Part shown: positions 7,834 to 39,257 of the stretch, piece after piece
Numbering within the stretch: position 1 is the stretch's first letter
Layout of the letters: every line of letters starts with the position of its first letter
DNA from: Oscillospiraceae bacterium
GTDB taxonomy: Bacteria > Bacillota > Clostridia > Oscillospirales > Oscillospiraceae
Reading direction: 5' to 3'
Assembly: GCA_017452505.1 (NCBI GenBank)
Contig: JAFTMI010000014.1
Span: forward strand, 1-53,918
Length of the DNA: 53,918 nucleotides
Translations under genes and position numbers: made by a program
Notes under the pieces: model-generated
Database searches by the model: none
The model's input: the letters and a program-made list of their open reading frames with translations, nothing else
Told to the model about the DNA's origin: nothing

Positions 7834-9201
7834 TTGGAAAACGAAACCGTAAACAAGAATATTCTGACACAGTTTGATCAATCCGCAAAGCAGTTCTGCG
7901 AAAAGACAAACGGCATTGCCTGCGATATAACCAATGTTTACAAAAACGAAGAAAAGAAGCAAAATCTGCAACATCGCTATGCCAAAATCTACTACAACAC
8001 TTTTACCCTGAAGTTTGTATATACACCCCACGGAATTATGGGTGTTGTGAATAGTGTTTTAAGCTGTTTGGTTTCTTTTGACAAAAATGAGGAGGCAATC
8101 GAGATACCACTGCCGCTAATGACGGACTATTGCGATATGAATGTGGCAATGCCAATGTGTGTTCCCCTCATTACCAATAAAACAGGAATGGCCCAAGCGT
8201 TTACCTGTTTGCAAACTGCCTTGATTGATTTGCTCCCTGTTGTAGCAGAGATTGGTGCAGATTCTCAACAGCGTGCGAAAATTTTAGCTGCATTTTGCAA
8301 TGAGATACTGTCCGTATTGGGAATAGAGCCTTCTGCCCAAATATCGCAGGCAATCATTGATTGGTCAGTGGTGAGGTTTGCTACCGGTGCTTTTTTGGTC
8401 AACCTAAAAGGAAACCGGAGGAAAGCAGCCAAAAAGTTAAGGAAAACAAAGAAATTGACCGGCTATGAGAAAAGGATGATTGCACTGTGGGAATCCAATG
8501 AAGCATACGATTATCCAGACATCTCTGCAATTGTTGAAAATGCGGAAGCGTATAACGAAAGCGGTGTGGAAAAGTTTTCACATAGAGAACTCTTTTCTGT
8601 GTTGACTTCAGCAGTTATTCTTACCCCTGTCATATCGGTGGCATACCTGGCGCTGTATTTCTTGTTGATGGCCTTGCAAAGCTGGAACGCGGTTTATCTT
8701 ATGGGGCCAATTTATAATTTCCCCATCGCCATCTTTGCGGCTTTTATGACAGGCTTTTCAGTAAGTTATTTTACGCGGCACAAAGCCTATAAATGGCTCT
8801 ATAAAAAGCATTATGACAAGTACTGCGAGATGGATCATATCCAAAACGGAGAAACAGCGGATAAAATAATGAAGTGGTTTACCGGGATCGTGATTGCGGG
8901 CAGCCTTGTGGTGTGCACACTGTTTCCTTATTGGAATTTGCGATTTTTGCCTGCTGGCTTCGTGGATAACTCCAAATTCCTTTCACTCAAAGGCCGGTAC
9001 TATGACTATAGCCAAGTGGAACGGGTCTATTATAAGGCGGACAGAGAAAATGATTTTGGCGAAGTGTTGGAGTTTCCATCCTATGTGCTTGTGCTGAAAG
9101 ACGGCAAAGAAATCGACCTTTACGAACATGGAGAAATCTCAGACTATGATCCCAAGTTGTTAGATCATCTTCGGGAAAAAGGTGTAAAAATAGAGAAATA
9201 A
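7834..9201 (+). CDS. Uncharacterised multi-helix membrane protein
   Basis: About 455 residues with no family I recognise. The first 200 residues are soluble-looking, followed by a basic stretch (NRRKAAKKLRKTKKL), two hydrophobic segments at residues about 258-320, a third at about 353-372, and a C-terminal domain of about 85 residues (residues about 370-455) that ends in charged residues. The C-terminal part (LKGRYYDYSQVERVYYKADR, then YVLVLKDGKEIDLYEHGEIS) resembles the small beta domains of bacterial-PH type proteins. The start is probably TTG at 7834, because AAAGGTGG sits 8 bases before it; the GTG codons at 7822 and 7825 lie inside that site. It heads an operon with glycerate kinase, 14 bases downstream. 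Confidence 0.65.
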   Translation: MENETVNKNILTQFDQSAKQFCEKTNGIACDITNVYKNEEKKQNLQHRYAKIYYNTFTLKFVYTPHGIMGVVNSVLSCLVSFDKNEEAIEIPLPLMTDYCDMNVAMPMCVPLITNKTGMAQAFTCLQTALIDLLPVVAEIGADSQQRAKILAAFCNEILSVLGIEPSAQISQAIIDWSVVRFATGAFLVNLKGNRRKAAKKLRKTKKLTGYEKRMIALWESNEAYDYPDISAIVENAEAYNESGVEKFSHRELFSVLTSAVILTPVISVAYLALYFLLMALQSWNAVYLMGPIYNFPIAIFAAFMTGFSVSYFTRHKAYKWLYKKHYDKYCEMDHIQNGETADKIMKWFTGIVIAGSLVVCTLFPYWNLRFLPAGFVDNSKFLSLKGRYYDYSQVERVYYKADRENDFGEVLEFPSYVLVLKDGKEIDLYEHGEISDYDPKLLDHLREKGVKIEK

Positions 9202-9215
9202 AAGGGGATGTTGTT

Positions 9216-10454
9216 ATGGATAAGTTATTGCTTTCTCACGCGGATACCATTGTTGCGAAAGCTATCCGGGCTGTCCAGCCGGATGCGGCTGTGGCAAGAG
9301 CCTTGGCGGGCAAGGAATTTCCCAGCAGAGTTTTGCTGGTTGCAGCAGGTAAAGCTGCCTGGCAGATGGCAAAAGCCGCCCATGACTGCATGGGCGACCG
9401 GATCGAGAAAGGCGTGGTTGTTACAAAATACTACCACGTAAAAGCCCCTATTGCCAATTTTGATTGTTATGAGGCCGGCCACCCTGTGCCTGATGCAAAT
9501 ACCTTCTCCGCGACCCAAAAGGCTTTGGAGCTGGTGACCGATTTGACCGAAACAGATACCGTGCTGTTTTTGCTGTCCGGTGGCGGCAGCGCTTTGTTTG
9601 AGAAGCCCTTGGTTCCCGGTGAGGAATTGCAGGACATTACCTCCCAGCTTTTGGCCTGTGGCGCGGATATCGTGGAGATGAACACTATCCGCAAGCGCCT
9701 GTCCGGTGTAAAGGGCGGACGCTTTGGGGAAGTCTGCGCCCCGGCAAAGGTCTTTGCGGTGGTGCTGTCGGATATTTTGGGTGACCCCTTGGATATGATC
9801 GCCTCAGGCCCGGCCTGCCCGGATAGCAGCACCTGCGAGCAGGCCATTGCCATTGCTAAGAAATATGATCTGCAATTAAGCGAAAAAGCCTGGGAACTTT
9901 TGAGCCGGGAAACCCCCAAGTCCCTTACCAATGTGGAAACGCAGATCACCGGTTCTGTCCGGGAGCTTTGCACCGCTGCGGCAAAAGTGTGTGAAGAATT
10001 GGGATATAAGCCTGTTTTACTTACCGATCAGCTTTCCTGCCAGGCAAAGGAGGCAGGTGCTTTCCTGGCAAGCATTCTCAAAACCCACGCAGGCAGCAAG
10101 GAGAACCTTGCCTTTATTGCCGGCGGTGAAACGGTGGTGCAGCTGACAGGCAAAGGCCTGGGCGGCCGTAACCAGGAGATCGCCCTGTCCGCAGCAGCGG
10201 GCATTGCCGGAGTTCCCGGCGCGGCGGTGTTCAGCGTTGGCTCCGATGGAACAGACGGCCCTACCGATGCCGCTGGCGGCTATGTGGATTTCCAAACTGC
10301 CGCAGCCCTCAAAGAAAAGGGCTGGGACATTTACGAAACCCTGCAAAATAATGATGCCTACCACGCATTGCAAGTAGTGGACGGGCTGATTATGACCGGA
10401 CCTACCGGCACCAATGTGAACGATGTAGCCGTAGCCCTGTTAAGAGGAGAATAA
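9216..10454 (+). CDS. Glycerate 2-kinase (MOFRL family)
   Basis: A 412-residue ATP-dependent glycerate kinase that converts glycerate to 2-phosphoglycerate and feeds glycolysis. The N-terminal domain has the conserved VAAGKAAWQMAKAA and LLSGGGSALFEKP segments; the C-terminal MOFRL domain has GGETVVQLTGKGLGGRNQE and SVGSDGTDGPTDAAGG. Length matches the family. It follows the unknown membrane protein by 14 bases and is followed 2 bases later by an aldo/keto reductase, so the operon probably handles a sugar acid or hydroxy-acid that ends as glycerate. Confidence 0.93.
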   Translation: MDKLLLSHADTIVAKAIRAVQPDAAVARALAGKEFPSRVLLVAAGKAAWQMAKAAHDCMGDRIEKGVVVTKYYHVKAPIANFDCYEAGHPVPDANTFSATQKALELVTDLTETDTVLFLLSGGGSALFEKPLVPGEELQDITSQLLACGADIVEMNTIRKRLSGVKGGRFGEVCAPAKVFAVVLSDILGDPLDMIASGPACPDSSTCEQAIAIAKKYDLQLSEKAWELLSRETPKSLTNVETQITGSVRELCTAAAKVCEELGYKPVLLTDQLSCQAKEAGAFLASILKTHAGSKENLAFIAGGETVVQLTGKGLGGRNQEIALSAAAGIAGVPGAAVFSVGSDGTDGPTDAAGGYVDFQTAAALKEKGWDIYETLQNNDAYHALQVVDGLIMTGPTGTNVNDVAVALLRGE

Positions 10455-10456
10455 TT

Positions 10457-11464
10457 ATGGAATACAGAGTTTTAGGAAAAACCGGTCTGAAAATATCCCG
10501 TATGGGTTTTGGCGGTATTCCCATTCAGAAGATCGATGCAGAAGGTACAAAAACCTTGATGGAGCAACTGATGGCCGCAGGTGTGAATTATATTGACACC
10601 GCCCGGGCCTACACCGTCAGCGAGGAATACTTAGGCTATGCCCTCCAAGGCATTCGCCAAAACTTTATCCTGGCCACAAAGAGCATGGCCCGCACCGCTG
10701 AAGCGATGGCAAAGGACATCGACCTGAGCCTGCAGAAGCTACAGACAGACTATATTGACCTGTATCAAATTCATAACCCCAACGCCAAGGACTTTGATGC
10801 TGTGCAGGCGCCCGGCGGTGCGCTGGAGGCTCTCCGGGCGGCTAAGGCGGCCGGCAAGATCGGCCATATCGGTATCACCCTCCACGCCGTTGATCTCTTT
10901 GAAAAAGCCGTGGAGCTTCCCTGGGTGGAAACCATTATGTTCCCCTATAACATCGTGGAAACCCAGGGTGAGGAACTGATCGCAAAATGCGCCGAGAAGA
11001 ACATTGGCTTTATCTGTATGAAGCCCCTGGCAGGCGGCGCCATCGATGATGCCACTACCGCTCTGCGGTTTATTGCCGCCAACCCCAATGTGACCGTGGT
11101 GATCCCCGGAATGGCGGAGGAAAAGGAAATAGGGCAGAACGTTGCTGCAATTTCCAATACCGCGCCTTTGTCCGAGGTAGAGCAGACAAAGATCAAGGAA
11201 ATCCGGGATTTCTTAGGCACAAATTTCTGCCGCCGCTGTAATTACTGCGCCCCCTGTGCAGCCGGCATCAATATTCCCATGATCTTCCTAATCGAGGGCT
11301 ATTTCAGCCGTTACAATCTAAAGGAGTGGGCGGAGACCCGTTACCGCAACTTAGAGAAGAAAGCATCAGACTGCATAGAGTGCGGCGTATGCGAGACCCG
11401 CTGCCCCTATAATCTCCCCATCCGTCAGATGATGCAAAATGCCAAGGAAGTCTTTGGGGAATAA
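10457..11464 (+). CDS. Aldo/keto reductase with C-terminal ferredoxin-like domain
   Basis: A 335-residue enzyme. Residues 1-250 form the aldo/keto reductase barrel with the catalytic tetrad visible: Asp and Tyr in YIDTARAYTVSE, Lys in ILATKS, His in YQIHNPN. The last 80 residues hold two cysteine clusters, CRRCNYCAPCAAGI and CIECGVCETRCPYNLP, which look like one complete and one atypical [4Fe-4S] site. Such fused enzymes can take electrons from ferredoxin-like partners as well as NAD(P)H. It lies between glycerate kinase and an SGNH hydrolase. The substrate is unknown. Confidence 0.88.
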   Translation: MEYRVLGKTGLKISRMGFGGIPIQKIDAEGTKTLMEQLMAAGVNYIDTARAYTVSEEYLGYALQGIRQNFILATKSMARTAEAMAKDIDLSLQKLQTDYIDLYQIHNPNAKDFDAVQAPGGALEALRAAKAAGKIGHIGITLHAVDLFEKAVELPWVETIMFPYNIVETQGEELIAKCAEKNIGFICMKPLAGGAIDDATTALRFIAANPNVTVVIPGMAEEKEIGQNVAAISNTAPLSEVEQTKIKEIRDFLGTNFCRRCNYCAPCAAGINIPMIFLIEGYFSRYNLKEWAETRYRNLEKKASDCIECGVCETRCPYNLPIRQMMQNAKEVFGE

Positions 11465-11476
11465 GGAAGTGTTTTC

Positions 11477-12532
11477 ATGAGCGATATTGCTGCCATTGAT
11501 GCCAATTTTAAGGTGGAAACGAAAATAGCACAAGAGGACTTGCGGTTCTACGATTCTCGACAAGCCCCCTTTCAGATTTGTGGTGTGTATTTTGAAGATG
11601 GGAAATTCCGCCGTATGCCGGAATCCGTGGCCAAAGATGTCAACCCCGGTGTTCTGCGCCTGCATGCCAATACTGCCGGCGGCCGTATCCGTTTCCAAAC
11701 GGACAGCCCCTATGTTGCCATTCATACCAAAATGCCAAGCATTGGGAAAATGCCGCATTTTGCCTTGACCGGCTCTGCGGGCTTTGACCTGTACGGCAAG
11801 GAAGAAGGGGAGCAGGAGCGGTATATGGGAACCTTTACGCCGCCCTTTGCCATAACTGATGGCTATGAAAGCATCCTCCGTTTCCCTGGGGCAAAAATGC
11901 GGGAGATCACCATCCATATGCCCTTGTATAGTGAGGTAAGTGCGCTGTATATCGGTTTGCAGGAGGGGGCAATTATCCTGCCGCCCAAGCCCTATAAGGC
12001 GCAGAAACCCATCGTCTATTACGGCTCCTCCATTACTCAGGGTGGTTGTGCATCCCGGCCGGGCAATGCATACCAAAATCCCATTGCCCGAAGATTGAAT
12101 GTGGATTATGTAAACCTCGGCTTTTCGGGAAGTGCCCAAGGCGAACAGGTGATAGCGGACTATATTGCAGGACTTCCTATGTCTGTTTTTGTCTATGACT
12201 ATGACCATAATGCGCCTACGCCGGAGCATTTGCAGGAAACCCATGAGAAAATGTTCCTGACAATTCGTAAGGCACACCCGGATATCCCCGTCGTCATGAT
12301 GTCAAGACCCAGAGCATATTTAAGCACAGAAGACCAGCGACGATTGGAAATCATTACGGCTACCTATGAAAATGCGAAAGCCCGGGGGGATCAAAATGTG
12401 TACCTGCTTACCGGCCCGGAACTGATGCGTGATGCAGGTAGCGACGGTAACGTGGACGGCACACACCCCACAGATTACGGCTTTGCCTCCATGGCCCGTG
12501 CCTTGGGAGACTTGCTTGAAAAATTGCAATAA
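11477..12532 (+). CDS. SGNH/GDSL-family hydrolase
   Basis: A 351-residue esterase-type hydrolase. Residues about 1-170 form a beta-rich N-terminal domain (GVLRLHANTAGGRIRFQTDS) of the kind found before carbohydrate-esterase SGNH domains. The catalytic half contains block I YYGSSITQGGCASRPGNAY with the nucleophile Ser, NLGFSGSAQGE, DYDHNAPTPE, and the final DGTHPTDYGF with Asp and His. No signal peptide is seen, so it acts in the cytoplasm. Deacetylation of an imported sugar derivative is plausible given the neighbouring glycerate kinase. It is the last gene of the operon. Confidence 0.85.
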   Translation: MSDIAAIDANFKVETKIAQEDLRFYDSRQAPFQICGVYFEDGKFRRMPESVAKDVNPGVLRLHANTAGGRIRFQTDSPYVAIHTKMPSIGKMPHFALTGSAGFDLYGKEEGEQERYMGTFTPPFAITDGYESILRFPGAKMREITIHMPLYSEVSALYIGLQEGAIILPPKPYKAQKPIVYYGSSITQGGCASRPGNAYQNPIARRLNVDYVNLGFSGSAQGEQVIADYIAGLPMSVFVYDYDHNAPTPEHLQETHEKMFLTIRKAHPDIPVVMMSRPRAYLSTEDQRRLEIITATYENAKARGDQNVYLLTGPELMRDAGSDGNVDGTHPTDYGFASMARALGDLLEKLQ

Positions 12533-12574: not shown

Positions 12575-15367
12575 TTAGATTTCCAGATCTAACTGAGAGA
12601 TAACAGCTGCGCAGCGGGGGCACAGGCCATTTTCGTCAGCTTCCGTGGAGTGCATCCAGCAGCGGGGACACTTCTTGCCCCGGGCTTCGGTAACACCTAC
12701 GGTCAAACCGGGCAGGTTGGTGCCGGTGCCGACGGTAGCACCCTCGGGAGCAGCTTCCCAATCGCAGGAGGACACAATGCAGATCTCAGCCAAGTTGAGG
12801 CCTTCGCAGGCAGCCTTCACAGCAGCATCCTGAATATCAAGGCTCACATGAGCCTCCAAAGCCTTGCCGATACGCTTGTCGGCACGGGCAACCTCCAGCA
12901 CGCCGTTTACATCCTGGCGCAGCTTCATCACAGTATCCCACTTAGCCATAGCAGCCTCGTCCAGGCAGTAAGCAGCAAAATCGGTGGGCATCTGATTCAG
13001 CAGAATGTTCCGGGCGTCGTCGCCATCGCGATGGGGCATTGCCTGCCAGATCTCATCGCAGGTAAAGGCCAGGATGGGAGCAAACAGCTTAGCCAAAGCA
13101 TCCACGATCAGGAACAGAGCGCTCTGTGCGCTGCGGCGGCGCAGGCCACCCGGCAGCTCGCAGTACAGCCGATCCTTGATAATATCCAGATAGAAAGAGG
13201 ACAGCTCCACAACGCAGAAATCGTTGATGATGTGGGAAACCACATGGAACTCGTAGTTGTCGTAAGCCTTCTTGCAGGCAGCAACCAAGTCATTCAGCTT
13301 GGTGAGCGCCCACTTGTCCAGCTCCTCCATCTCAGCGGGAGCAACCAAGTTGTTGGGGTCAAACTCGTTCAAGTTGCCCAGGCAGTACCGGGCGGTGTTA
13401 CGGAACTTCAGATAGTTCTGGGCGATCTGCTTGAAGATCTCCTTGGAGCAGCGTACATCTGCGTGGTAGTCAGAAGATGCAGCCCACAGACGGACGATGT
13501 CCGCACCGAAGTCCTTAATAAGGTCAGCGGGATCAACGCCATTGCCCAAAGACTTGTGCATAGCCCGGCCCTGGCCGTCAACGACCCAGCCGTGGGTCAG
13601 CACCTGCTTGAAGGGTGCGCCCTGGTCCAGCGCGCCAACGGAGGTCAGCAGACTGGACTGGAACCAACCACGATACTGGTCAGCACCTTCCAAATATACA
13701 TCTGCAGGCCATAGCTCGGGAGTGCGATGCATCAAAGAGGCAAAGTGGGTGGAACCGGAGTCAAACCAGCAGTCCAGGGTGTCGGTCTCCTTGTCGAAGT
13801 CTTTGCCACCGCAGTGGGGGCAGGTGAAGCCTTCCGGAACAAGTTCCATAGCTTCCTTCTCGAACCATACATTGGAGCCGTGCTCATCAAACAGGGCAGA
13901 GATCTTGGAGATGGACTCGGGGGTGGAAACAGGCTTGCCACAGTCCTTGCAGTAGAACACAGGGATGGGCAGACCCCAGCGGCGCTGACGGCTGATACAC
14001 CAGTCGGCACGCTCCCGGATCATGCTTTCCATCCGGTCGCCGCCCCAGGCAGGGAACCACTTCACATTCTCGATAGCCTTAACAGCCTGATCCTTGAAGG
14101 ACTCCACGGAGCAGAACCACTGAGGGGTAGCCCGGAAGATAACGGGCTTCTTGCAGCGGTCGTGGTGGGGGTAGGAGTGAACGATCTCTTCGGAAGCGAA
14201 CAGAGCACCGCTTTCCTTCATATCTGCCAAAATCACAGGATTGGACTCTTCGGTCTTCATGCCGGCATATTTGCCTGCATAGTCGGTGTGGCGGCCGTAA
14301 TCATCCACAGGCACAACCAGCTCCATGCCGTAACGCATACAGGTCTGATAGTCGTCAGCACCAAAGCCGGGCGCGGTGTGAACACAACCGGTACCACTGT
14401 CCATGGTAACATACTCAGCGTAAACCAGACGGGAGGTCTTGTCCAGGAAGGGGTGCTTAGCCAGCATATTCTCGAAGAATGCGCCGGGATAGGTAGCCAA
14501 AATTTCATAGCTGGTATAGCCGCCGATGCCCATAACCTTTTCGCACAGAGCCTCTGCCACAATAAAGATCTCATCGCTGTAGTCAGGCTTCACCAGCACA
14601 TAATTATCACGAGGATGCAGGCAGATAGCCATATTGCCGGGCAGGGTCCAAATGGTGGTGGTCCAAATGACGAATTTGACCTTGCTCAGATCAAAGCCCT
14701 CCAGCTTGCCCAAATCGTCGGCAATGGGGAACTTTACATAGACGGAAGTACAGGGATCGTCCTTGTACTCGATATCAGCTTCCGCAACGGCGGTAGCGCA
14801 GAAGGGACACCAGGTAACGGGCTTCAGACCCTTGTAGATGTAGCCCTTGTCGAACATCCGGCCAAAGACCTTGACCTCCTGGGCCTCGAAATGCTTGTCC
14901 ATGGTACGGTAGGGATGCTCCCAATCGCCCACAACACCCAGGCGCTTGAAGCCGCCCATCTGCTTCTGAATGAAGTCCTCGGCGAAATCCTCACAAGCCT
15001 TCCGGAATTCCGGCACGGACATGTCCTTGTTCAGCTTTTTCTTGGAGTTTTCGATGGCGCGTTCGATGGGCAGACCGTGGTTATCCCAGCCGGGAACGTA
15101 GGGAGTGTAGAAGCCCATCATAGCGTGGCTGCGGACGATGAAGTCCTTCAGAGCTTTGTTCAGCGCGTGACCCATGTGAATGTAGCCGTTACTGAAGGGA
15201 GGGCCATCGTGAAGAATAAAGGGGGGCAGACCCTTATTTTTTTCCAGCAGCGCGTTGTAAAGATCCAACTCGTTCCACCGCTCCAGCATACCCGGTTCCC
15301 GGGCAGGCAGACCGGCCTTCATGGGGAAGTCGGTCTTGGGGGTGATAATGGTGTTTTTGTATTCCAT
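12575..15367 (-). CDS. ileS: Isoleucyl-tRNA synthetase
   Basis: A 930-residue class Ia aminoacyl-tRNA synthetase that charges tRNA-Ile. The HIGH-type motif is in PPFSNGYIHMGHALNK (residue about 60) and the KMSKS-type motif in GRAMHKSLGNGVDP (residue about 605). Between them lies the editing domain. The C-terminus has a zinc site, CPRCW and CPRC. The start at 15367 has GGAGGT 7 bases upstream; the frame runs five residues further without a site. A T-box leader for isoleucine lies directly upstream, followed by divIVA, sepF and ylmE in the usual Firmicutes order. Confidence 0.96.
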   Translation of the reverse strand: MEYKNTIITPKTDFPMKAGLPAREPGMLERWNELDLYNALLEKNKGLPPFILHDGPPFSNGYIHMGHALNKALKDFIVRSHAMMGFYTPYVPGWDNHGLPIERAIENSKKKLNKDMSVPEFRKACEDFAEDFIQKQMGGFKRLGVVGDWEHPYRTMDKHFEAQEVKVFGRMFDKGYIYKGLKPVTWCPFCATAVAEADIEYKDDPCTSVYVKFPIADDLGKLEGFDLSKVKFVIWTTTIWTLPGNMAICLHPRDNYVLVKPDYSDEIFIVAEALCEKVMGIGGYTSYEILATYPGAFFENMLAKHPFLDKTSRLVYAEYVTMDSGTGCVHTAPGFGADDYQTCMRYGMELVVPVDDYGRHTDYAGKYAGMKTEESNPVILADMKESGALFASEEIVHSYPHHDRCKKPVIFRATPQWFCSVESFKDQAVKAIENVKWFPAWGGDRMESMIRERADWCISRQRRWGLPIPVFYCKDCGKPVSTPESISKISALFDEHGSNVWFEKEAMELVPEGFTCPHCGGKDFDKETDTLDCWFDSGSTHFASLMHRTPELWPADVYLEGADQYRGWFQSSLLTSVGALDQGAPFKQVLTHGWVVDGQGRAMHKSLGNGVDPADLIKDFGADIVRLWAASSDYHADVRCSKEIFKQIAQNYLKFRNTARYCLGNLNEFDPNNLVAPAEMEELDKWALTKLNDLVAACKKAYDNYEFHVVSHIINDFCVVELSSFYLDIIKDRLYCELPGGLRRRSAQSALFLIVDALAKLFAPILAFTCDEIWQAMPHRDGDDARNILLNQMPTDFAAYCLDEAAMAKWDTVMKLRQDVNGVLEVARADKRIGKALEAHVSLDIQDAAVKAACEGLNLAEICIVSSCDWEAAPEGATVGTGTNLPGLTVGVTEARGKKCPRCWMHSTEADENGLCPRCAAVISQLDLEI

Positions 15368-15375
15368 TGGAAATA

Positions 15376-15636
15376 CCTCCATAGTGTAATCATAATAAAA
15401 ATGCCTTTGTCCCTATATAAGAGACAAAGGCATTGTGACCTCTGCGGTACCACTCTCATTCCGGGAATATCCCGGCACTCGAATGCACGGTATCGGGTGC
15501 AACCGGCGCAGCCTACTTACATAAAGTGTTGGGTGCGCTGCTCAAAGGGGATGCAAAGTGTTGGATACCTGCTGCCTTGCACCGTCCGGCAGCTCTCTGT
15601 TGGCATTGCCAAGCTTTGCGTGTCCTTGTCTAAGCG
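15376..15636 (-). promoter_or_regulatory. T-box leader of ileS
   Basis: On the minus strand the conserved T-box AGAGTGGTACCGCAGAGGTC (15433-15453 region) lies just before an intrinsic terminator, and a long structured stem I region lies upstream. A candidate specifier is ATC (complement of 15564-15566, in GGTATCCAAC), an isoleucine codon. Uncharged tRNA-Ile would pair with specifier and T-box and prevent termination, raising ileS expression. The 5' end is approximate because the leader abuts the divIVA stop codon. Confidence 0.9.
15400..15434 (-). terminator. T-box terminator
   Basis: AATGCCTTTGTC (15400-15411) pairs with GACAAAGGCATT (15423-15434), followed on the minus strand by TTTTTATT. 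This is the conditional terminator of the ileS leader. Confidence 0.92.
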
Positions 15637-15640
15637 TTAA

Positions 15641-16318
15641 TTATCCTTTTGTGGGGTCGTAATTGGGGCCAAATTTCAAATCCTTAAATTTCTCCGTTGC
15701 GTCGGAAACAGGGGGCTTGGGCTCAGCAGTAGCTACAGGTTCTTCGGCAGTGCCGATTAAGTTCTGCAGGGTTGCGGAGATCTCGTCAGCCATAGTGTCG
15801 GTTTCATCACGCTTGCCTTCTACCTGGTCGAAATCAAATAAACCGGTTTCGGCAGTGGGAGAGGGGGGATTTGCGGCCTTGATGCGGTCGAGCGCCTTCA
15901 CACAGGAGAGAATCTGCTCTCTCAGCTCGTCGATCTTCGCGCAAGCGGTCTTCCGGGCTTCTTCCACCCGAGCCTCCTCAGCTGCGATCATAAGATTTGC
16001 GTTCTTTGCGCTTTCGATAGCGGCAGCGTTGGCTTCGTTCAGCATCTCGGCGCACTTGGCTTCAGCCTCTTCCAACATTACGTCACAGGTCTTTTGCGCG
16101 TTGACGATGGCATCTTTCATGCTGGTTTCGTTGTCCCGGTATTCTTCCAGCTTGCTGACCAAAACCTTCATCTTGCTCTTGAGCAGAGCGTTTTCCTTAT
16201 GCAAGGTGGTGAAGTCTTCCAACAGCGGTTCCAGGAACTGGTCTACGGATTCCATATCATAGCCGCCAAAGGTGGCGCGGCCAAAGGAAACCTGTTCAAG
16301 ATCTTGGGGTGTTAACAT
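15641..16318 (-). CDS. divIVA: DivIVA-domain cell division protein
   Basis: A 225-residue DivIVA-family protein that binds curved membrane at poles and septum and organises division. The N-terminal lipid-binding domain (LTPQDLEQVSFGRATFGGYD, residues 2-21, then ESVDQFLEPL) is followed by a long coiled coil to about residue 145 and a low-complexity tail with Pro-Thr-Glu and Lys. It lies 22 bases after sepF and abuts the ileS leader. The order ylmE-sepF-divIVA-ileS matches Firmicutes division clusters, although the usual ylmG and ylmH are absent. Confidence 0.92.
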   Translation of the reverse strand: MLTPQDLEQVSFGRATFGGYDMESVDQFLEPLLEDFTTLHKENALLKSKMKVLVSKLEEYRDNETSMKDAIVNAQKTCDVMLEEAEAKCAEMLNEANAAAIESAKNANLMIAAEEARVEEARKTACAKIDELREQILSCVKALDRIKAANPPSPTAETGLFDFDQVEGKRDETDTMADEISATLQNLIGTAEEPVATAEPKPPVSDATEKFKDLKFGPNYDPTKG

Positions 16319-33450: not shown

Positions 33451-33512
33451 AAAAAACTGAATGCAAAACCGCCATCCAAAATATGGACAGCGGCTTCACT
33501 ATAGAGAGTATA

Positions 33513-36071
33513 TTATTTGTTGGCTTCTCTTGCGGCTTTGTCGGCCTCGTAATTGGCGCGGTCCTGTGTGCCCAAGGCGTTGCGGAACAGGACAGTTCCC
33601 GTTTCATCTGCATCAAAGGTGTATTCCACAGATGCATGCCAGCCGTCACGCAGGCAGGTAGGCTCGTAGCGGCGGAACAGGCCGTCATTGGTGGGGAAGT
33701 AGCCCTCTCCCGTGCCTTTATACTCCGTCAGCTCCCAAATGCAGTCCAATTCTTTCTCTTTGCCGTAAGGCCGGGAGAATTTTACGATACCCACCCCCGG
33801 CGCAAACCAGTAGTCCATCGTACCGCCCCGGTAGCCGTAACCACCGCTTTTACCGGTGAGGGTAAAGGTAATGTGGCGGCAATTTTCAAATTTTTCTGCA
33901 GCCGTGGTGACGCTTTCATCCTCCAGCACATCGAAGATCAGATGTTCCTTCTCCTGCCAACCATCAATGTCCTTTTCAATGTGATACCCCGGCACCCAGG
34001 CATCATCCCATACGCATCCTGCTGCATCCTTGAGAATGTCATACAGGAAATTGTACAGCACCTTAGAGCCTTCGTTGCCCCGCACACGATCCTTCCACTC
34101 AAAACTGTATTCCCGATTGTCAGAGATGGATACCTTCCCGTTTGAGGAAGAGATATCAATTTTTTCAAAAAAGTTCCAAAAGCCTTTTTCTGTGTAGTCA
34201 GGATTGGTTTGCGGAGAGGTAGCAAAGATCCGATCCATCACATTGGTGGCGATAGCGGTATGTACTTTTTCTCGTTTGGTTTTGGCAAGCTGTGATGCCC
34301 GGGCCAAGGGCTGGCTCACATCCACAAGCTTGTGTTTGTCAGCGCTTTCGGCTATGGCATATTCCCTCCGAGCTTGCAGTATATTGCCTTCCCAGGTGTT
34401 TTCATCGTATGCAGCTACATAAACAAAACTGCTTGCCATTATCGTTACACTGTCTTCGTTTGCTGCAGTAACTTCAAATATGTTATCCGAGTGGTAGCGC
34501 AAGCCTTTCGGAGAATCGGTCGTGTAGTGCCATTTGTTGCCGGCTGCAAAGGGGAGAAGACCTGTGCCGCCCTGTACGGTGTAGCTTTCCAATTTCCAGA
34601 TTCTGGGCTGACCCCATATTACCTTTTGATACACGATACCCACATTGGGGCAAAAAGCGGTTTCACAGTAGGTAAGACCGTGGCTGTTGCCCTCGAAAAC
34701 AAATACAGAGCAGTCTTCAAAGACTCCGGCAGGTGTGTCAATGGTGATACCCGTTTCCCGATAAGTAAGATTATTACCGTTACTTGAGGTTGCCACATCG
34801 CCCACTTTCATATCCGGGTCGTAGATCAAGTTTCCTAAGCGAGAGGCGTTGTAAAACAGACTTCCGTGACCGGAGAGATTACCTCTGCCATAACCGGGCT
34901 GTGTCCAGAAATACAGTTTGCCATCGATGTACTTGTATATTTCGCCTGTGGCATGCAGTTCACATTGCTCTTCCGATGAGCTTAGATTATGGAGCTTCTC
35001 TTCCACATCCAGCGCAGCCAAAGCGTTGGCATAATACACATCCTCAGGCTCAAGTATTTCTACTACCTTTTTGTATGCTTTGATGCATTCTTCGTAGTTG
35101 CGTTCATCCCTGTAAGCAAAACCTAACCAAAAATAAACGTAGGCCAAAGTTTTAGGAAAGCCTTCTTCTTCCAACCAAGGAATTTGGGTCTCCCTCATAA
35201 ATTCAATGAGCTTTGCACCGCTGTATTTGTCATTTTCACAGGCAATAACGCACTGCATAACTTCTTCGTTGTGGCCTTGCAGCGCGGCTTCTTTCATTCG
35301 GGCAAGGACGGTATCGTTCCGTTCTCCGGGCAGCCACCAGTAGCCTGCCATCAATGTGTCCGCCAAAGCATACTGCTTTTCCTTGGACTCTGTTAAGTCC
35401 TCCACAGCCTGCAAAACCCGCCGGTATTCTTCTTCAAACCCGGTCTTATCGTCCTTCAGCCGCCACAGCTTCAGCTGCTCCACCTGCCGCATGACCCGGG
35501 CAAGTACACGCTCATTATCGTCATATTGCTTTTCCATAAGACCATATTCCTTTCTCAGTTGTTTCCGCCCCTGGCTGAGCCGCCATTTCACCGTTCCCGC
35601 CGGCAGGGAAAGGCGCTTGGCAATCTCTGCAATGGAAAGGCCCTCGAAATAGTGGAGTTTGATGGCCTCCCGGACCTTCTCACTAAGAGATTCCACAGTT
35701 TCGTGAAGCTCCGCGGCTTCGAGCATTTTCGTAAGCTCGTCGTCCTCTGACACATTGTGTAGTGGATCCAGGCTGATATCCGGGATGGCATTGCGGTAGT
35801 GGACAATCAAAGTCCGCGCCTTGTTTTTGGCAATGCTGCATACCCACGGGCCGAACTTAGTCCGTTCCTTCAGTCGGTCTAAGTTGATCCAGGCAGAAAC
35901 AAAGGCATCTTGGGATGCATCCTGGGCTGAAAACTGATTCTCGGTGATCTTGAAGGCAGTGCCCATCACGGCGCGCTCGTGCCTGCTCACCAGCTCCTCA
36001 AAAGCAGCTTGATCTCCCAACAGGGAAAGCTCCACCAAGGTATCATCTGAATGGTTTACATAATGTGTCAT
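33513..36071 (-). CDS. ECF sigma factor fused to a helical-repeat and duplicated beta domain
   Basis: An 852-residue protein. Residues 1-175 form a complete ECF sigma factor: region 2 (DQAAFEELVSRHERAVMGTA, then DASQDAFVSAWINL, then FGPWVCSIAKNKA) and region 4 (SIAEIAKRLSLPAGTVKWRL). Residues about 180-365 are mainly helical, with a TPR-like unit (TLAYVYFWLGFAYRDERNYE). The rest is beta-rich and contains a diverged internal duplication: GVFEDCSVFVFEG...CPNVGIV at 449-480 and KFENCRHITFTLTG...APGVGIV at 727-763. No transmembrane helix or signal peptide was seen. Ordinary ECF factors are under 200 residues and end after region 4. There is no adjacent anti-sigma gene, so the extension probably controls it in cis. 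AGAGAGGA precedes the ATG at 36071. Confidence 0.85.
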   Translation of the reverse strand: MTHYVNHSDDTLVELSLLGDQAAFEELVSRHERAVMGTAFKITENQFSAQDASQDAFVSAWINLDRLKERTKFGPWVCSIAKNKARTLIVHYRNAIPDISLDPLHNVSEDDELTKMLEAAELHETVESLSEKVREAIKLHYFEGLSIAEIAKRLSLPAGTVKWRLSQGRKQLRKEYGLMEKQYDDNERVLARVMRQVEQLKLWRLKDDKTGFEEEYRRVLQAVEDLTESKEKQYALADTLMAGYWWLPGERNDTVLARMKEAALQGHNEEVMQCVIACENDKYSGAKLIEFMRETQIPWLEEEGFPKTLAYVYFWLGFAYRDERNYEECIKAYKKVVEILEPEDVYYANALAALDVEEKLHNLSSSEEQCELHATGEIYKYIDGKLYFWTQPGYGRGNLSGHGSLFYNASRLGNLIYDPDMKVGDVATSSNGNNLTYRETGITIDTPAGVFEDCSVFVFEGNSHGLTYCETAFCPNVGIVYQKVIWGQPRIWKLESYTVQGGTGLLPFAAGNKWHYTTDSPKGLRYHSDNIFEVTAANEDSVTIMASSFVYVAAYDENTWEGNILQARREYAIAESADKHKLVDVSQPLARASQLAKTKREKVHTAIATNVMDRIFATSPQTNPDYTEKGFWNFFEKIDISSSNGKVSISDNREYSFEWKDRVRGNEGSKVLYNFLYDILKDAAGCVWDDAWVPGYHIEKDIDGWQEKEHLIFDVLEDESVTTAAEKFENCRHITFTLTGKSGGYGYRGGTMDYWFAPGVGIVKFSRPYGKEKELDCIWELTEYKGTGEGYFPTNDGLFRRYEPTCLRDGWHASVEYTFDADETGTVLFRNALGTQDRANYEADKAAREANK

Positions 36072-36105: not shown

Positions 36106-36136
36106 CTTATAAGACACAAAAAATACCAAAAAGGTT
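36106..36136 (-). promoter_or_regulatory. Candidate ECF-type autoregulated promoter
   Basis: On the minus strand AACCTTTTTGG (36126-36136) is followed by GTCTTATAAG (36106-36115). The AACC-plus-T-run and GTC blocks recall ECF -35 and -10 elements, and the same arrangement is seen before the other ECF gene near 179-210. Confidence 0.45.
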
Positions 36137-36193
36137 GGCTTTTGCGAAAAAATTTTGTGTAGGGCGGGGGCTTGCTCCCGCCGTAGTTCAGCA

Positions 36194-36223
36194 AAGCCGC
36201 TGCCTGTTACCGGGCAGCGGCTT
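36194..36223 (-). terminator. Stem-loop after the MATE gene
   Basis: AAGCCGCTGCC (36194-36204) and GGCAGCGGCTT (36213-36223) form an 11-bp stem five bases past the MATE stop. The T-run is weak. A further GC-rich hairpin (GGGCGGG-GGCTTGCT-CCCGCC) lies at about 36163-36182. Confidence 0.5.
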
Positions 36224-38744: not shown

Positions 38745-39257
38745 ATGATCATTTTGATTGCCGGTGCGACCCATACGGGAAAGACTGCCTATGCGCAAAA
38801 GCTTTTGGAAAAATACAAGTACCCCTACCTGTCCATCGACCACTTGAAGATGGGCCTTATCCGTAGCGGACAAACGGAGCTGACCCCTATGGATGACGAC
38901 AAGCTGACCGACTACCTGTGGCCCATTGTCCGGGAGATGGTAAAAACAGCCATCAAGAATAAGCAAAATCTCATTGTGGAGGGGTGCTATATTCCCTTTG
39001 ATTGGCAGAAAGATTTTTCCCGGGAGTACTTGGAACATATCCGATATGTGTGCCTTGTGATGTCCGCGGACTATATTGAAAACCACTTTGCGGACATTGT
39101 GGAAAAGGCAAGCGTCATTGAGTGCCGCCTGGACGATTCTGACCTGGATAAGGCTGAACTGATTGCTGAAAACACATATAATCTTACCCAATGTGTTGCC
39201 TACAACTTGCCCTACATATGCATTGACAGGTCATATGACCGGATGGAGCTGATTTGA
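38745..39257 (+). CDS. P-loop kinase-like NTPase
   Basis: A 170-residue protein with a Walker A motif, LIAGATHTGKTAYAQKLL (residues 4-21), and an architecture like small kinases of the adenylate or phosphoglycerate kinase type, including NLIVEGCYIPFDW, a Walker-B-like strand. It is likely to phosphorylate a small metabolite or act as a nucleotide-dependent switch, but the substrate is unknown. It lies 11 bases after the PAS gene and directly abuts the DUF3786 gene. Confidence 0.7.
   Translation: MIILIAGATHTGKTAYAQKLLEKYKYPYLSIDHLKMGLIRSGQTELTPMDDDKLTDYLWPIVREMVKTAIKNKQNLIVEGCYIPFDWQKDFSREYLEHIRYVCLVMSADYIENHFADIVEKASVIECRLDDSDLDKAELIAENTYNLTQCVAYNLPYICIDRSYDRMELI

Follow-up and report, generated by a model that had tools for sequence, protein, structure and literature searches.

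We describe a gene family in which an ECF sigma factor is fused to a long C-terminal extension that contains two copies of a beta domain, apparently of the DUF3108-like type. The member studied here lies in a stretch of 53,918 nucleotides from an Oscillospiraceae bacterium, which at its whole length is called the window (Table 1). We propose, with a probability of about 0.6, that the protein works as a stand-alone ECF sigma factor that activates its own expression and has a built-in regulator. A promoter is conserved before 40 of 40 family genes, so the fused sigma factor probably activates its own gene, and no regulon was seen.

Table 1. Features of the fused sigma factor gene and its flanks in the window
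Feature	Position	Strand	Basis or remark
Fused sigma factor gene (P0001)	33513..36071	-	ATG at 36071, 852 aa; alignment of 26 members
ECF sigma domains 2 and 4, residues 1-180	35532..36071	-	Pfam, NCBIfam
Helical TPR-like part, residues 183-365	34977..35525	-	Pfam, profile comparison, conservation
Beta domain copy A, residues 366-505, DUF3108-like (predicted)	34557..34976	-	hhalign to copy B; lipoprotein-like matches
Beta domain copy B, residues 506-790	33702..34556	-	Insert at ~556-690; hhalign, DUF3108_like and PDB matches
C-terminal tail, residues 791-852, GYFPxxDGLFRRYEP...	33516..33701	-	Family alignment
ECF-type promoter: CCAACC (36138-36133), 17 nt, GTCTTAT (36115-36109)	36109..36138	-	Conserved element
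Terminator-like hairpin, 16 pairs	33463..33499	-	Directly 3' of the stop codon
Hairpin between the MATE gene and the promoter	36194..36223	-	By eye; short T run only

The fused protein and its family

The stop codon of the fused gene ends at 33513 on the minus strand, a strand that the initial annotation had not named. A ribosome-binding-like GAGAGGAA was seen by eye immediately 5' of the ATG. The frame could also open at a TTG at 36194, and this longer form is unlikely because the promoter sits between the TTG and the ATG. The region has five terminator-like sites against a shuffle mean of 4.1, so that only its position supports the hairpin behind the gene, and the hairpin upstream of the promoter is absent from the terminator-scan list.

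Sigma70_r2 (residues 27-88) and Sigma70_r4_2 (residues 121-172) both exceeded their Pfam cut-offs, and TIGR02937 scored 81.8 bits in the sigma part (cut-off 42.9), in agreement with the complete ECF sigma factor first read at the N-terminus. The TPR-like nature proposed for the helical part was borne out by a TPR match at residues 310-339, below the Pfam cut-off, and by the family profile of residues 183-365, which matched designed and natural TPR proteins. Mean pairwise identity among 26 members was 54% in the sigma part, 56% in residues 183-260, 37% in copy A, 40% in the core of copy B and 47% in tail residues 791-835. This alignment (A1) contained 26 of 32 sequences; three near copies (L038, L045 and L048), two incomplete sequences (L046 and L051) and one with an extra copy (L061) were dropped. 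Helices in the copy-B insert (~556-690) appeared only in a low-confidence AlphaFold2 model that was built from two sequences (the window protein and its relative L003) and had a mean pLDDT of 36.4.

A domain duplication had been proposed from motifs that the two beta regions share, and profile-profile comparison confirmed that the copies are homologous, diverged duplicates of one domain. Hhalign of residues 366-505 against 505-852 gave a probability of 98.4% (E 4e-15), pairing ~435-505 with 712-790, and copy A against the copy-B core gave 98.7% (E 2.6e-16). Pfam DUF3108_like (PF21347) matched the beta region in 25 of the 26 members at E <=0.1 (best 5e-12); the window beta region scored 21.2 bits, below the 27-bit cut-off, and relatives L059 (42.1 bits) and L061 (40.1 bits) exceeded it. 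Over the AGtFenC...GvGiv part, the family profile matched PDB entries 4fvs, a 'putative lipoprotein' (E 4e-5), and 3fzx, a 'putative exported protein' (E 2.4e-4). Each copy carries one invariant cysteine (Cys-454 and Cys-731 in the 26-member alignment), which is also found in the lipoprotein-like relatives.

Outside the sigma family, a part of the beta region was matched in at least 46 genomes besides the source genome when 398 genomes of the phylum were searched, and no other match spanning the whole beta region was among the matches listed. Reading 29 of the matched loci revealed a motif-bearing protein in 23, and at least 10 of these 23 had a lipobox-like signal by eye. The beta domain thus appears to be DUF3108-like, with relatives elsewhere that are mostly small lipoprotein-like proteins, and the suspected link to secreted-type domains is supported by the Pfam, relative and PDB matches together. 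Two of the 23 proteins, from L113 (550-1785) and L121, appear to be M56 (BlaR1-type) peptidases in which the peptidase part is followed by a DUF3108-like domain; Pfam found both domains in L113 (DUF3108_like at 24.7, below the cut-off of 27), and L121 was assigned by reading. These peptidases suggest that the domain can serve as a sensor.

The fused protein itself is predicted to be cytoplasmic. Its N-terminus is a sigma domain, and none of 40 family proteins had a stretch of transmembrane strength (the top 19-residue Kyte-Doolittle mean was 1.54, and 1.01 in the window protein), as had been expected for a protein free of a signal peptide and of transmembrane helices. Pfam gave no match to an enzyme family in the extension of the window protein or of family members.

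The extension was present in at least 46 of 394 genomes of the order, and the fused family in at least 10 of the 391 examined at class level, the source genome included in both counts. Most order-level open frames were 851-911 aa or 1044-1155 aa. In 40 loci the frame including the sigma part could be read as a single uninterrupted frame (845-1141 aa from the chosen start), which supports a constant fusion, and identity to the window protein ranged from 29 to 86% among the 26 aligned members. It is therefore practically out of the question that a sigma gene and a downstream gene were joined here by an assembly or sequencing error. That explanation, named beforehand as one that could overturn the fusion, gains something from two relatives split into two frames (G166 and G978), but it is refuted by the recurrence of the fused frame. 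The extension is ~670-960 aa long across the family, larger than the sigma part. A longer form, recognized by length in 18 of the 40 members (1030-1091 aa) and aligned in 8 of the 26, adds ~200 C-terminal residues; in member G084, region 554-836 is repeated in place of this addition.

The fused gene is patchy, since no full-length match was found in 36 other genomes of the window's genus. The L003 relative, from an 'Oscillospiraceae bacterium' MAG of roe-deer rectum, shares 86% identity and seven neighbour clusters with the window. In a midpoint-rooted tree of 106 ECF sequences the family sigma domains grouped into a single clade (support 0.89), as expected if the sigma part and the extension were inherited together. 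The fusion is an old family. In the same tree, sequences from the loci of a second extended sigma family (described below) formed no single clade, and at least one of them was another gene. A contaminating contig was rejected as the source: the window MutS was 64-76% identical to near full-length matches of the same genus and 48-57% to those of other families (partial matches reached 77% in one same-genus case and up to 63% in other families). A good MutS match was missing from 2 of the 36 same-genus genomes (G008 and G027). From these identities, the window fits its genus. A viral origin was also rejected, as a scan of viral contigs gave five loci that matched sigma regions only.

The conserved promoter and the search for targets

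The promoter of the window gene ends 37 nt 5' of the ATG. Family genes share an upstream element consisting of CCAACCTTTT, a spacer, and then either GTCT(T)ATA or a sequence close to it, for example CTCTTATA. A promoter-like site (CCAACC-N16-18-GTCT) stands before all 40 family genes with scores of 25.1-35.7, and the distance from CCAACC to the -10 box is 17 nt in 34, 18 nt in five and 16 nt in one. Among the other genes of these loci, only 1 of 362 scored >=20. Because the scoring matrix was built from the same 40 promoters, nine members found later were used as a separate test: the promoter was clear in seven and partial in two (L230 and L233), with 5 of the 6 that were scored at 26.7-34.3, and L232 and L227 having the promoter by reading. 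Two diverged members outside the 40 had sites scoring 30.3 (L102) and a weak 18.7 (L091, gene 9047-11662). Neighbouring genes generally differ between loci, so the promoter has stayed with the gene and not with the region. An AAC -35 box and positive autoregulation are among the early defining features of ECF sigma factors, as stated in the part of PMC8103513 available to us, and the predicted family promoter fits this pattern. Such conservation attests selection on the promoter, not its reading by the fused sigma factor itself.

Half of the family promoters (20 of 40; shuffle mean 1.8) contain a perfect palindrome of at least 8 bp, for example in L100, L087 and L081, and 19 of the 20 lie at nearly one position just after the -10 box. 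The palindromes vary in sequence and keep their symmetry (AAGCGCTT, GAAAGCTTTC, GAGTACTC, CAGATGCATCTG). Their form resembles an operator, close to the start site, for a protein that binds as a dimer. The window's own promoter has no palindrome after its -10 box.

We then consider where else the promoter occurs. In the source genome, which is 82.5% complete, no site besides the promoter of the fused gene matched with at most 1 mismatch. A regulon with degenerate sites was rejected there, as <=3 mismatches gave 41 sites and the backward control 48. Across 46 genomes, 50 sites with <=1 mismatch were found against 8 control sites, and 37 of the 50 precede a family gene by coordinates. Two of the remaining 13 (G105:C27 and G201:C84) match a relative's family promoter in sequence, a third (G166:C28) may also be a family promoter and one belongs to a solute-binding protein gene, which leaves nine, near the control number. 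That gene (L179:3331-4740, genome G237) is divergent from a fused sigma gene, has the same promoter (33.5) and was the only convincing second target seen, in one genome. The comparison by coordinates covered 57 of 60 family match rows, and a strict-pattern site was missing for 19 of the 57; an 18-nt spacer accounts for at least five of these. Thus no regulon was detected for the fused sigma factor among the 46 genomes, where candidate sites beyond the family stay near the control level. Since only near-perfect matches to the gene's own promoter could be separated from chance, and the source genome is 82.5% complete, targets may be missed.

A scan with variable spacing gave 54 sites against 15 control sites and revealed a second site group. 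It belongs to a second extended ECF family, read as 552-564 aa in 7 of 10 loci (L169:544-2232, L172:574-2244, L173:2389-4053, L174:551-2242, L175:621-2282, L176:2073-3728 and L177:540-2222); L170 and L178 run off the stretch and L171 stops at 168 aa. The sigma part is followed by ~380 residues, winged-helix-like by eye with a further part, and the extension of L173 had no match above the Pfam cut-off. Its promoter, CCAACCTTTT...GTGTCTATA, occurs at ten sites with a spacer shorter by 2 nt (7 of 10) or 1 nt (3 of 10), and its palindrome is TGAAAGCTTTCA in eight, TGAATGCATTCA in one and imperfect in one. Another extended ECF sigma factor of the source genome (613 aa; contig C31, L002:1483-3324) is of a membrane-type design, with a hydrophobic stretch seen by eye and sub-threshold matches to SH3 and zinc-ribbon domains.

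The fused gene is flanked by a MATE transporter gene and, downstream, a glutamine synthetase gene. The four nearest genes tested encode MATE, flavin reductase-like, glutamine synthetase and DUF362 proteins; as first noted, no anti-sigma factor is among these four, and none was among the 25 neighbour families, out of 89, that were listed for the relatives. Over 40 loci, neighbour blocks were common only to close relatives, with a few distant loci sharing one gene cluster. The commonest Pfam family occurred in at most 3 of 80 neighbours (proteins of 150-700 aa from 31 of the 40 loci). An operon or a partner deduced from synteny was therefore rejected: no neighbour is generally conserved, and the divergent solute-binding gene with a site was seen in G237 only. 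Glutamine synthetase had a strong match (E <=1e-100) in 10 of 37 genomes, the source genome included, and in the glutamine synthetase loci read we neither saw the window's gene arrangement nor identified an empty site. Elsewhere in the window, positions 38745-39257 (+) encode 170 residues whose matches to AAA_33 and to zeta-toxin-type kinases stay below the cut-off, and a T-box leader lies at 15417-15641 (-), just 5' of a 935-aa frame (12575-15382).

Possible modes of action

In the proposed mechanism, the sigma part would read the CCAACC-N17-GTCT promoter before its own gene, a step to which the conservation strongly points. The helical part after the sigma domain would couple it to two cytoplasmic DUF3108-like beta domains, and these would keep the sigma part inactive or incomplete until a ligand or protein in the cytoplasm engages them. 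Active sigma factor would then make more of itself, giving a steep response, and further targets, if any, would use promoters too weak for detection here. The initial annotation had put forward a cytoplasmic ligand as the switch of the sigma part through the extension, and we find such a switch plausible. In favour of a built-in regulator, residues 183-260 (56% identity) equal the sigma part (54%) in conservation, and in ECF41, ECF42 and CorE the sigma part is governed by the extension, according to the text of PMC8999054 at hand. Against it, neither genome scans nor the neighbourhood yielded a ligand, partner or regulon; we also count the two partial promoters among later members, the weak L091 site, the 19 of 57 rows lacking a site and the patchiness of the gene.

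The main alternative is that the extension is the working product and the sigma domain serves only to express it, the protein being its own only target. We consider this unlikely. It agrees with the absence of a second target above control in the source genome and, across 46 genomes, of any beyond family genes and the second sigma family; the terminator-like hairpin after the gene fits a single-gene unit, and the extension is larger than the sigma part. However, targets may have escaped scans that recover near-perfect sites only in a genome that is 82.5% complete, the sigma domains are counted as the best-conserved parts, and the extension has no enzyme family match in Pfam. That the beta domains would then do the work, for example by binding a small molecule or a lipid, is not a likely role either. 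A system resembling ECF42, in which activity needs the extension as a scaffold for binding proteins while a separate partner carries the signal, seems quite improbable to us. The TPR-like part does follow the sigma domain directly, the TPR extension of ECF42 is essential as described in the available part of PMC8999054, and 18 of 40 members by length add a further C-terminal module; yet no generally conserved neighbour offers a candidate partner, and the beta domains look more like those of lipoproteins than like any known scaffold.

Returning to the self-activating sigma factor with a built-in regulator, we can sketch a stricter form, which we hold to be rather doubtful. It would be a closed one-gene positive-feedback circuit whose target set is essentially its own gene, and in which DUF3108-like domains, moved from the cell surface to the cytoplasm, would detect a ligand and determine how much of the sensor is made. 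If this self-only circuit were true, the sister promoter of the second extended family may point to a recurrent design. That no other target is apparent poses a concrete puzzle about the purpose of a sigma factor that reads only its own promoter. With a predicted promoter in hand, reporter assays can start at once.

Comparison with known extended ECF sigma factors

While classical ECF sigma factors have a neighbouring anti-sigma factor, the window gene has none among its four nearest genes; its predicted promoter, CCAACC-N17-GTCT, has an AAC-type -35 box as in this class. ECF42 shares with the window protein the ECF sigma domains, the lack of an adjacent anti-sigma factor and a TPR-like helical region directly after sigma domain 4. 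However, its extension is ~200 residues long (PMC8999054, part available) against ~670-960 residues with DUF3108-like beta domains here. A YCII-related gene, a trait of ECF42 neighbourhoods, was not seen in the window genes that were tested or in the 25 families, out of 89, listed for 80 neighbours of relatives. One-protein regulation by a fused, soluble and perhaps ligand-binding domain, as we suppose for the window protein, is also the principle of ECF41, but the window protein has no SnoaL-type Pfam match at E <=1. Similarly, CorE (ECF238) has an extension that senses without a membrane part, as may be the case here, but in the window protein, which has one invariant cysteine per beta copy, no cysteine-rich domain was seen.

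Ruminococcus is near the Oscillospiraceae. The type protein of ECF262, SFB89493.1, is from Ruminococcus albus, and Table 2 of PMC8999054 (part available) lists this group with a regulatory extension and without an anti-sigma factor, a profile that the window protein may share. The layout had been held to be unlike known groups. This stands for the extended groups described in the accessible text of PMC8999054, none of which matches, and is weakened by ECF262, which is listed there without a description. An ECF sigma factor with DUF3108-like domains is likewise not described in the portions of PMC8999054 and PMC8103513 at our disposal. The fused family would thus be an extended ECF family whose layout may already have a group number, possibly ECF262.

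The beta copies share the motif TPAGxFxNC ... GVGIV with DUF3108-like proteins (PF21347; 4fvs and 3fzx). Elsewhere, these proteins are mostly small and lipoprotein-like, with two joined to M56, whereas here the domain lies inside a sigma factor without a signal peptide. Extended ECF sigma factors are one-protein signal switches, most groups of which are unstudied (15 of 26 in the part of PMC8999054 seen), and the family adds to them a lipoprotein-type domain that the same part of that paper does not describe for extended ECF sigma factors.
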